The notes under the pieces: model-generated
Database searches by the model: none
What the model was told of the DNA's origin: nothing
Seen by the model: only the letters and a program-made list of their open reading frames with translations
Program-made: the position numbers and the translations under genes
Shown: positions 1-26,005 of the stretch, piece by piece
How the letters are laid out: the number at the start of each line of letters is the position of its first letter
Numbering within the stretch: position 1 is the stretch's first letter
DNA from: a virus
DNA: 33,877 nucleotides
Strand: one strand, 5' to 3'
Virus record (IMG/VR): IMGVR_UViG_3300047550_002714
Location: 1-33,877 of that record

Positions 1-27
1 CATGTTTATTTTTACTGATTTTTTGTA

Positions 28-45
28 CATGAGGGAGCGCTCATG
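28..45. promoter_or_regulatory. Inverted repeat CATGAG-N6-CTCATG
   Basis: A perfect 6+6 bp inverted repeat (28-33 and 40-45) lies just outside the 3' end of the tRNA-like element. It could be an operator or a short RNA hairpin. Neither strand shows a T-run straight after it, so it is not a classic intrinsic terminator. Positions 1-65 hold no gene that I can support. Confidence 0.3.
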
Positions 46-65
46 TTAATTCCGTAAACATTGGG

Positions 66-162
66 TGTTGGCTGCAAGAATCGAACTTGCTCCCGGACAT
101 GGACTGCCTACCCACCTTTTGGCTCTCGGACTTTCCGTAAACTACCATTATTTAAAGCCAAC
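66..162 (-). ncRNA. tRNA-like element with enlarged anticodon-position arm
   Basis: Read on the minus strand, a perfect 7-bp acceptor stem GTTGGCT/AGCCAAC (162-156 with 73-67) is followed by a D-arm with the usual AATGGTA loop. A 5-bp T-stem GCAAG/CTTGC closes the canonical loop TTCGATT (90-74). The discriminator base is A, with no encoded CCA. The middle does not give a normal 5-bp anticodon stem with a 7-base loop. Instead a 4-bp stem CGGA/TCCG closes a region of about 35 bases, inside which GCC/GGC encloses a 12-base loop. It may be an atypical tRNA, a tRNA mimic that ends a larger RNA, or a degenerate tRNA. No anticodon can be assigned. Confidence 0.5.
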
Positions 163-579
163 ACGACTGCGCACTTATTCACCTTCACCGCTACTTAGTG
201 TCACGGCTACTTCGGTTATCCCTCTGCCACGGGCTGCACTGGCAGTTGCAGTAGTGCGCATGCGTGTTAGCCCTGACTCTTACCCGATCAGGTTAGGTGT
301 TGGCGCATTTATTTAGCCTGTGGCGTCTTAAATACCAACATTGAAGCGGGCAGGGCTTGATACCTGCTGAATATGCTGGCGACTCCATAATCATTCTGAG
401 TTCCCACCTGCCCGCTTTCAGAGTTCACCGGTAGGTTCAGTACGTGCCCTTCCACGCCGCCGCTTCAATCTTGGCCCCAGCCTTTAGCGTCGCTGGGATG
501 GACGGCTACTCGCTGCACTTGGTGCGCTATTTGGTCAGGAACCCCCAATCCTTCCCAAGCATTTGCTTTCGTTTTGTTA
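66..579 (-). ncRNA. Candidate large structured non-coding RNA
   Basis: About 510 bases without a credible gene, clearly GC-richer than the AT-rich phage genes around it and full of inverted repeats. The strongest is a 13-bp stem with one bulge pairing 342-354 with 407-420. Another pairs CCCAGC (476-481) with GCTGGG (492-497). More short stems lie around 215-290. A likely extended -10 promoter (586-594, minus strand) sits at one end and a tRNA-like cloverleaf (66-162) at the other, so one minus-strand transcript would cover the block. Large ornate phage RNAs such as GOLLD and ROOL are of similar size and often lie next to tRNA genes. I cannot match this sequence to either, so family membership is only a hypothesis. 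An 83-codon frame on the plus strand is judged non-coding. Confidence 0.4.
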
Positions 580-585
580 GCTTTG

Positions 586-594
586 CTTATATCA
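586..594 (-). promoter_or_regulatory. Candidate extended -10 promoter for the structured RNA
   Basis: The minus strand reads TGATATAAG, an extended -10 (TGN plus TATAAG). The region 17-18 bases upstream is only weakly like a -35. Transcription would start near 579 and run into the GC-rich structured block. It diverges from the promoter of the HTH operon. Confidence 0.3.
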
Positions 595-643
595 GGAACA
601 CAACTAACGAATGAAATGATAGCAAAAAATCACACATTGCATA

Positions 644-673
644 GTTGTATTTGCACCACGTTGTATTTGTGCA
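644..673 (+). promoter_or_regulatory. Tandem operator-like repeat (copies A and B)
   Basis: Two direct repeats starting GTTGTATTTG begin at 644 (GTTGTATTTGCA) and 660 (GTTGTATTTGTGCA), exactly 16 bp apart. The same element recurs at 5122-5151, also as a pair with 16-bp period, and at 33177-33190. In each case it is oriented toward the transcription unit it precedes. Here it lies directly upstream of the promoter for the HTH genes. It is a likely binding site for a phage or host regulator. Confidence 0.5.
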
Positions 674-679
674 AATAAG

Positions 680-708
680 TATATTTTATGTACTCTAGGA
701 TATACAAT
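680..708 (+). promoter_or_regulatory. Promoter of the HTH operon
   Basis: TATATT (680-685), a 17-bp spacer and TACAAT (703-708). The -35 is weak. The same arrangement occurs at 33212-33240, where the 17-bp spacer is nearly the same (TTATGT, one variable base, CT, one variable base, TAGGA). This conservation is the main support. The first start codon follows 30 bp downstream with a good AGAGG ribosome site. Confidence 0.5.
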
Positions 709-737
709 ACATACACCTAAATAAATTAGAGGTAAAA

Positions 738-956
738 ATGACACAAATAGCTAAACTTGCCAAGTTGTTACAACGTAAACAAGGCTGCACTATGTATGAA
801 GTGTGCCTATTATGCAATAGCACTACCCCTACCAGAAGGCTAAGTGATTTACGTGATCTTGGGTGGTCAATTAAAAAAATAAAAATACAAGGCAAAAATT
901 ATCACAGATTTTATGGGAAACCCCCGAAAAATAAACAATTAAAAGGTATTTTATGA
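738..956 (+). CDS. Winged helix-turn-helix protein (HTH_39-like)
   Basis: A 72-residue basic protein. The segment from about residue 5 to 60 matches the pattern of small phage winged-helix domains: a first helix (IAKLAKLLQ), a helix pair in which TTPTRRLSDLRDLGW is the recognition region, then a basic wing. It probably binds DNA as a regulator of early phage genes. AGAGG precedes the ATG with good spacing. It is the first gene after the repeat-flanked promoter, and its TGA overlaps the next start (ATGA). The binding site is not known. The tandem repeats upstream would be the natural candidate for autoregulation, but that is inference. Confidence 0.7.
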   Translation: MTQIAKLAKLLQRKQGCTMYEVCLLCNSTTPTRRLSDLRDLGWSIKKIKIQGKNYHRFYGKPPKNKQLKGIL

Positions 957-25522: not shown

Positions 25523-26005
25523 TCAGCCGTTAGCGTTCAATGAAGGCCAAGCCAACTGCGCAATCGCAAAACCAGCAGACGGAGTGCCATCGGCAGTTTT
25601 GAAACGTGCGCCGTCAATCTTGTCACCAGACACAACAGCATCATCCACAGTACCAGCAGTAGCAGTTACATACACGTTACCGTTTGCAGCAACAGTAGCG
25701 GCTTTAACAACCGCGGCGCCACCAATTTGATACCAACCAAATTGGTTAGCTACGTTAGCAGACATAGCAACCGCAGCAGGGCCACGGTCACCAGCAGCCG
25801 CCCGTTTTGTGGTGTTTGCATAAGTATCATAAATTACTAAATCACCGATAGCAGTTGACGCTACGCCTTTTAGGTAAATGAACTCACCAGCACCATAAAC
25901 AGGGTCAGAAGCAGTAACAACAGTGCCTACCGGATGGTTTTGAACGGTATCGGTTACAGCAATAGGCTGGGGGCCGATAATATGAGAGGTAATGGTATAA
26001 GGCAT
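25523..26005 (-). CDS. Capsid decoration (cement) protein
   Basis: A 160-residue beta-rich protein directly after the major capsid gene. The C-terminal half is a small jelly-roll-like unit: FGWYQIGGAAVVKAATVAANGNVYVTATAGTVDD, and PSAGFAIAQLAWPSLNANG at the end. This pattern (GWVQI.G.A.VKA) is usual for decoration proteins that bind the outside of the capsid and stabilise it. Confidence 0.75.
   Translation of the reverse strand: MPYTITSHIIGPQPIAVTDTVQNHPVGTVVTASDPVYGAGEFIYLKGVASTAIGDLVIYDTYANTTKRAAAGDRGPAAVAMSANVANQFGWYQIGGAAVVKAATVAANGNVYVTATAGTVDDAVVSGDKIDGARFKTADGTPSAGFAIAQLAWPSLNANG

Follow-up and report, generated by a model that had tools for sequence, protein, structure and literature searches.

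Positions 66-579 of the window, by which we mean the whole 33,877-nt stretch of viral DNA analysed here, look like a member of a widespread, unannotated and unnamed family of phage RNAs. This view follows from the recurrence of the same RNA in well over 100 phages and prophages, where it is equally unannotated. Comparison of these homologues shows, at the level of sequence, that a tRNA-like scaffold made of an acceptor-like stem (P1), a D-arm and a T-arm is kept by compensatory change in many phages. The initial annotation of the block had suggested a structured minus-strand phage RNA, possibly of a new class, and both the homologues and their covariation support this suggestion. Viral tRNA mimics are a known kind of molecule; within the limits of our analysis, the architecture described here is new, and so are its swappable insert and its spread among DNA phages.

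Gene content, composition and folding of the block

The window is a 33.9-kb phage record that codes for a portal, a terminase, a major head protein, a DnaC-like loader and a Sak4-like annealing protein, and its portal shares 30-38% identity with the portals of named phages. As initially described, the block contains no credible gene, the longest overlapping frame in the ORF list being only 83 aa, and it is richer in G and C (about 0.48-0.54) than the DNA immediately to its right (0.27-0.36). Folding alone is an insufficient case, because the block barely beats shuffled sequences and both strands behave alike (z -2.1 on the minus strand, -2.3 on the plus strand). The extended -10 promoter once placed near its start was not confirmed by a simple consensus scan of window positions 1-800, which yielded zero sigma-70-type promoters, and no sigma-70 promoter or terminator near the block rose above chance.

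ARAGORN called zero tRNAs in the block, and Rfam 15 returned zero matches at gathering score. At E 10, the only Rfam matches were of the microRNA-type chance kind, plus a weak, sub-threshold one to tRNA-Sec (E 0.19) over the 3' tRNA-like unit. The tRNA-like 3' end noted earlier is thus present, with an acceptor and a T-arm; the unit shows no obvious anticodon arm, and CCC follows it. Rfam, including the GOLLD, ROOL and tmRNA models, thus offered no matching family, nor did its models match the elements in 16 homologous loci. Kinship with GOLLD and ROOL, which had been considered, is therefore not sustained by Rfam, either in the window even at E 10 or in the homologues at gathering score. It was comparison that decided the matter, since homologues were found whose stems covary.

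Homologues define an RNA family

A blastn search of the block against phage records gave a 42-nt match in Alcaligenes phage QDWS595 (Schitoviridae), lying in an unannotated intergenic gap of roughly the same length as the block; against plasmids, there was one chance-level match. The string GCAGGTATCAAGCCCTGCCCGC, common to the window and QDWS595, has exact copies in 21 contigs of IMG/VR; its inner 18 bases recur in 70 contigs of IMG/VR and 16 of GTDB, and a second conserved string upstream, GCGGCGTGGAWGGACACGC, has at least 120 IMG/VR matches. Loci in which the two strings are joined constitute what we call family A. The set comprises at least 156 elements, 147 of them with distinct inserts, nearly all from phage contigs and some from prophages. 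Matches in Ruegeria phage DSS3P8 and Rhodovulum phage P1 were not accepted as members, 18-base matches in Ruminococcus, Oscillospiraceae, Sphingobacterium and Ilumatobacteraceae contigs were considered chance or too weak, and a composite of the two motifs matched none of the E. coli genomes.

A covariance model (R1) built without the window recognises it with 67.5 bits (E 2.4e-12; Table 1). The same model scores 58.3 bits in QDWS595, 67.8 in Pseudanabaena phage Pan3, 68.4 in Caulobacter phage DMCA (element at 25553-25687), 60.8 in Komagataeibacter phage phiKX1 and 71.8 in Acidovorax phage AP1, and all five elements occupy gaps without annotated features. We found neither the motif strings in the literature nor a published description of family A in open-access sources; one may still exist.

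A tRNA-like core maintained by compensatory change

Family A elements run from the 5' strand of P1 through a CG linker, the hairpin GCGUG-GAWGGA-CACGC, a variable insert, an A and the hairpin GCNGG-UAUCAAGC-CCNGC into the 3' strand of P1. This order reproduces tRNA connectivity: acceptor, positions 8-9, D-arm, anticodon/variable region, and a T-arm continuous with the acceptor. The CG linker is present in 144 of the 147 distinct elements and the GAWGGA D-loop in 142, while the T-loop reads TATCAAGC in 100 and a close variant in the remainder; it resembles the tRNA consensus TPsiCRANY with one extra base. Because loci were fetched by exact arm strings, the conservation of the arms is overstated, and fairer figures come from D-arms fetched by the T-arm and T-arms fetched by the D-arm. 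Among the former (57 elements), 39 are GCGTG/CACGC and 6 GCGTT/AACGC, the others differing; among the latter (89 elements), GCCGG/CCGGC accounts for 45, GCGGG/CCCGC for 8, GCAGG/CCTGC for 6 and GCTGG/CCAGC for 3, besides others. The D-stem of QDWS595 is wholly different (TTCGAT/ATCGAA) and carries the same loop.

Pairs 1-7 of P1 are paired in 95-100% of the elements and pair 8 in 80%, in agreement with a 7-bp acceptor stem to which some members add further pairs; each of pairs 2-7, paired in 95-100% of the 147 elements, uses 4-6 pair types. In an alignment of 46 elements that excluded the window (18 pairs), standard pairs fill 97.6% of the cells, compared with 74.4% after shuffling and 30-45% after sliding. 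Two-sided changes number 185 versus 52 expected, and the covariation score is 0.575 versus 0.122. The three helices of the scaffold thus covary strongly.

Anatomy of the window array

The window element has the P1 stem, here of 15 bp, the CG linker, a D-arm with a GAWGGA-like loop and a T-arm with a UAUCAAGC-like loop (Table 1). The initial annotation had given weight to a 13-bp stem pairing 342-354 with 407-420. The complementarity is real, but its role as a structural core does not hold: the stem would destroy the conserved T-arm and acceptor stem, and its 11-nt exact part occurs only in the window among the 147 elements (shuffle expectation about 0.0003 each). This segment is private to the phage and may be either chance or a private switch.

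Table 1. Features of the block on the minus strand of the window.
Feature	Position	Strand	Basis
tRNA-like core (family A), whole	335-474	minus	R1 match 342-467 and 146 other distinct elements
P1 acceptor-like stem, 5' strand CCAAGATTGAAGCGG	460-474	minus	pairs with 335-349; P1 covariation
2-nt linker CG	458-459	minus	precedes D-arm
D-arm-like hairpin GCGUG-GAAGGG-CACGU	442-457	minus	comparison with family
Variable insert, 73 nt, in place of anticodon and variable arms	369-441	minus	comparison with family
5' strand of initially annotated stem, complementary to T-arm and P1 3' strands	407-420	minus	1 of 147 elements
T-arm-like hairpin GCAGG-UAUCAAGC-CCUGC, 8-nt T-loop	350-367	minus	comparison with family
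P1 3' strand, directly continuous with T-arm; last bases also open next module	335-349	minus	comparison and sequence
Hairpin CCCAGC-GACGCUAAAG-GCUGGG, just 5' of core	476-497	minus	near-identical pre-core hairpin in L057
Module 2, closed by UGUUGG/CCAACA	298-340	minus	sequence; predicted pairing
Hairpin CCUGA-UCGGGUAAGAG-UCAGG, loop as in Alcaligenes phage pre-core hairpin	272-292	minus	predicted
Module 3, closed by CUAACACG/CGUGUUGG	158-270	minus	single-sequence fold and sequence; predicted
3' tRNA-like unit, acceptor UGUUGGCU/AGCCAACA	66-163	minus	tRNA-Sec match 20.8 bits, below threshold
D-arm of 3' tRNA-like unit, canonical-looking	138-154	minus	sequence
T-arm of 3' tRNA-like unit	74-90	minus	sequence

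The array as a whole is a series of modules closed by CCAAC/GTTGG repeats, the last of which is the 3' tRNA-like unit. On the minus strand the repeats read CCAA (471-474), GTTGG (335-339), CCAAC (299-303), CTAAC (266-270), GTTGG (158-162) and CCAAC (67-71), and CCATC/GATGG closes modules likewise in other phages. The pairings inside modules 2 and 3 are putative, derived from the sequence and a single-sequence fold.

Hairpins with a CGGGUNAGNG-like loop accompany array-type cores in the window (272-292), in L002 just 5' of the core, in L117 and in L151; a strict pattern scan gave no confirmation of this hairpin as a general feature. Tandem pairs of family A elements with differing inserts were seen in three loci (L131:5234-5541, L151:5276-5574 and L057:6803-7279). 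QDWS595 also encodes, separately from its family A RNA, a permuted tmRNA with the plausible tag ANDNVYAAAA (L002:5089-5471, minus strand). Achromobacter phages JWAlpha, Axy24 and phiAxp-3 contain sequences, mostly in unannotated stretches, that weakly resemble the 3' tRNA-like unit of QDWS595 and may represent a unit without the core or merely a common T-arm.

The variable insert

Inserts range from 42 to 234 nt (median 82) in the family A set, and their folding barely differs from that of shuffled sequences (mean z -0.22). What stands out is the position of their helices. Enrichment is seen for helices with a 3' strand that stops 0, 1 or 2 nt short of the T-arm's A (z 5.1, 6.4 and 4.3, respectively; no enrichment at offsets 4-9) and for helices with a 5' strand that begins 4-7 nt downstream of the D-arm (z 4.0; no enrichment elsewhere). 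Where both helices are present, they interleave into an H-type pseudoknot. Strictly placed pseudoknots (score at least 24) occur in 27% of the elements versus 12% of shuffles; of four displaced controls, two were flat and two had a smaller excess. Clean examples are found in L187, L108, L123, L012 and L106, and the window insert has no convincing pseudoknot. The comparison shows that inserts tend to place a helix directly ahead of the T-arm, and in a minority of members this helix belongs to an H-type pseudoknot.

Within a few groups (L120, L094, L175 and L176) inserts are conserved with compensatory changes. Between phages with about 90% identical flanks, the insert can be wholly replaced: insert similarity is 0.50 for L015/L158 and 0.25 for L005/L038, against 0.38 +/- 0.09 for random pairs. 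Complementarity of the inserts to their neighbourhood showed no excess over swapped inserts in the fetched flanks. In one locus (L034:6824-7011) the insert holds a complete tRNA-Pro, that is, a tRNA nested in a tRNA-like RNA.

Ends of the element

Members with a short P1 show partial enrichment of the end signals read by RNase P, and the stack and loops that this enzyme recognises are conserved. U-1 is found in 31, G1 in 33 and R73 in 38 of these 49 members. RCC follows in 17 of the 49, versus 2-6 for CC at control offsets, and RCCA is encoded in 6. In the window and the other long-P1 members the acceptor-like stem reaches 12-24 bp, and the standard RNase P site is not exposed. Promoters showed no clear excess upstream of the short-P1 members.

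Genomic context

Closeness to tRNA genes, part of the initial argument, holds for a portion of family A: an ARAGORN tRNA lies within 1 kb of 24 of the 147 elements, on the same strand in 23, compared with 5% of random positions in the same loci. Most of the genomes searched carry a single copy. Bacterial occurrence is patchy: in one bacterial order 5 genomes out of 300 carry an element, and in another 3 out of 200. All three chromosomal copies checked sit among phage genes, namely an integrase and CII, a primase and a terminase small subunit, and a CI-like repressor and a RecE-like exonuclease, respectively. The hosts comprise several proteobacterial groups, a cyanobacterium, and Acidobacteria and Peregrinibacteria MAGs. 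The genes downstream of the elements are unrelated to one another, and a riboswitch or leader for a given gene was rejected on this ground. RtcB RNA ligase, an enzyme that acts on tRNA-like ends, is encoded (Pfam PF01139) by the next called gene in one single case, about 335 nt 3' of the element of L071.

A second tRNA-like family

A further kind of unit, termed family B, was found in L216, L234, L267 and L280 and about 60 times in IMG/VR contigs, and also in L005, L017, L107, L187 and L205 (Acidovorax phage AP1). Its units combine a covarying 7-bp acceptor, an AAT linker, the D-hairpin GCGC-AGGCUGAU-GCGC, an insert of at least 33 nt and the T-hairpin GCCGG-AGAUCAGCA-CCGGC, which runs into the acceptor. 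The D-loop GCUGAU and the T-loop AUCAGC are perfectly complementary over 6 bases. Rfam gave no match to family B in the 12 loci scanned. One contig with a family B unit also carries an RT-15 RNA (RF03018; L234:8777-8959).

Comparison with known RNAs

Family A is not a tRNA, as neither ARAGORN nor Rfam RF00005 recognises it and its 42-234-nt insert has no constant anticodon arm. The bacterial Y RNA YrlA is likewise a tRNA-like module with an extended stem, but no Rfam match links it to the window or the homologues. A close parallel in layout is tmRNA (Rfam clan CL00001), in which acceptor, D-region and T-arm are combined with a long pseudoknot-bearing insertion that replaces the anticodon arm. 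Family A departs from tmRNA in its paired D-arm and 8-nt T-loop. All 147 elements lack the G3-U70 alanine pair and the Rfam tmRNA models gave no match, and on these grounds identity with tmRNA was rejected.

The C4 antisense RNA of phages P1 and P7, a substrate of RNase P (PMC11143913, citing Hartmann et al. 1995), is also phage-borne, has a variable domain and relies on the host enzyme that family A would use for maturation. Family A differs from it in its full D-arm, T-arm and acceptor, in having no Rfam match and in having no antisense target in the fetched flanks. Plant viral tRNA-like structures such as that of TYMV share the D-loop/T-loop elbow mimicry and the pseudoknotting elsewhere, but they form the ends of viral genomes made of RNA, and their acceptor is reconstructed by means of a pseudoknot (PMC4810234). 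Family A, an RNA of DNA phages, has a normal acceptor helix, and its variable part takes up the anticodon site. Both GOLLD and ROOL are large RNAs of phages and prophages that often occur close to tRNA islands, and GOLLD linkers may hold tRNAs (PMC12286853), as does one family A insert (L034). The family A core, by contrast, has only about 100-300 nt and another architecture. Theta ribozymes, which are HDV-like and self-cleaving and lie at tRNA ends (PMC10879173), are similar in being phage-borne, pseudoknotted and linked both to tRNA genes and to the processing of tRNAs. In family A, the whole structure lies within P1, and the shorter inserts are too small to accommodate the HDV P3 hairpin. 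This topology differs from the nested double pseudoknot, with its catalytic C in J4/2, of HDV-like ribozymes; judged from the topology and from the Rfam models, with no match at gathering score, an HDV-like ribozyme seems unlikely.

Possible function

We give about even odds to the block encoding a stand-alone, trans-acting phage RNA, matured by RNase P and shaped like a tRNA, that presents an exchangeable domain. The GG-containing D-loop and the UAUCAAGC T-loop would dock as a tRNA elbow. The 7+5-bp stack, the elbow, U-1, G1 and a 3' RCC would then direct host RNase P to cut the 5' end, and tRNA enzymes would trim or tail the 3' end. The product would be a stable tRNA-shaped RNA, in the window part of an array of ~500 nt, whose variable domain is shown to a partner specific to the phage or the host; comparable scaffold-and-cargo designs exist in tmRNA and in the C4 antisense RNA that RNase P processes. 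We favour this reading because the conserved parts are those read by RNase P and the tRNA end-processing enzymes, whereas the anticodon position is left free to vary. In binding its substrates, RNase P grips the elbow, gauges the length of the acceptor/T stack and forms base pairs with the 3' end (PMC4919913), and tRNA-like structures as well as C4 are among its substrates (PMC11143913). Processing of the family A RNA is predicted from its tRNA-like ends. Against the reading as a whole, only about one third of the short-P1 members encode RCC, and the window insert lacks a clear pseudoknot and carries the competing segment. The weakest point is what the insert does; its cargo role is only putative given that its fold hardly exceeds shuffles and that the fetched flanks contain no antisense match. 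The next weakest is the processing of long-P1 members such as the window. As to the kind of activity, a regulatory or interference RNA seems more likely to us than one with a role in translation.

By imitating a tRNA, the RNA might instead tie up some host component that recognises the elbow or the acceptor end. Candidates would be the ribosome, a toxin, a modification enzyme or a defence enzyme that attacks tRNAs, and the insert would merely replace the anticodon arm and prevent the RNA from taking part in translation. The partner of such a decoy should be universal, given that constancy is confined to the elbow and acceptor and that the hosts are so varied, and plant viruses do hijack host factors by elbow mimicry (PMC4810234). 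We nevertheless consider this unlikely: a passive insert would be expected to shrink, yet none is shorter than 42 nt, the position of a helix within it is conserved, and its wholesale replacement between close relatives suggests that it does something specific. A role in cis, in which host RNase P would cut at a tRNA-like punctuation between genes and so set the ends or stability of the flanking mRNAs, agrees with the intergenic position, with the enriched RNase P-type end signals and with those elements that end 15-30 nt before a start codon bearing an RBS. It becomes improbable when the neighbours are considered. The downstream genes are of no common kind and are sometimes on the opposite strand, as in Pan3 and DMCA; both neighbours lie on the element's own strand in only 41 of 125 cases (crude gene calls), and genomes mostly hold one copy.

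Phage tRNA arrays decay, and functionless debris of a tRNA or tRNA array would account for the tRNA genes enriched nearby and for the several broken tRNA-like units of the window array. For the core, this explanation is refuted by covariation, and the same unusual D- and T-loops recur in unrelated phages; modules 2 and 3 of the window may possibly be such debris, and as an account of the whole we deem it very improbable. Inverted repeats can also form cruciforms in DNA, and a packaging, replication or recombination site with dyad symmetry would suit the mostly single copy per phage. The tRNA-like connectivity, the T-loop consensus and the G-U pairs in the helices argue for an element acting as RNA, and its position in the genome is not fixed; a DNA-level role is thus highly unlikely.

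Beyond the window, it is possible, if doubtful, that a whole class of tRNA mimics reduced to the elbow, comprising at least families A and B, gives DNA phages a universal scaffold on which effector domains can be exchanged. The tRNA body would be the handle and the anticodon position a rapidly swapped specificity domain, across unrelated phages and hosts and without a named counterpart. If true, this scaffold would be a phage RNA system that has no named equivalent. An RNA family present in well over 100 phage contigs, absent from Rfam and unannotated in five published phage genomes already represents a large annotation blind spot. The combination of a constant scaffold and a replaceable domain makes its function directly testable, and family B would offer structural biologists a second case of how far the tRNA elbow can be rebuilt. 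If RNase P makes the ends, these phages would mature their own non-coding RNA with a nuclease that nearly every bacterium must keep.
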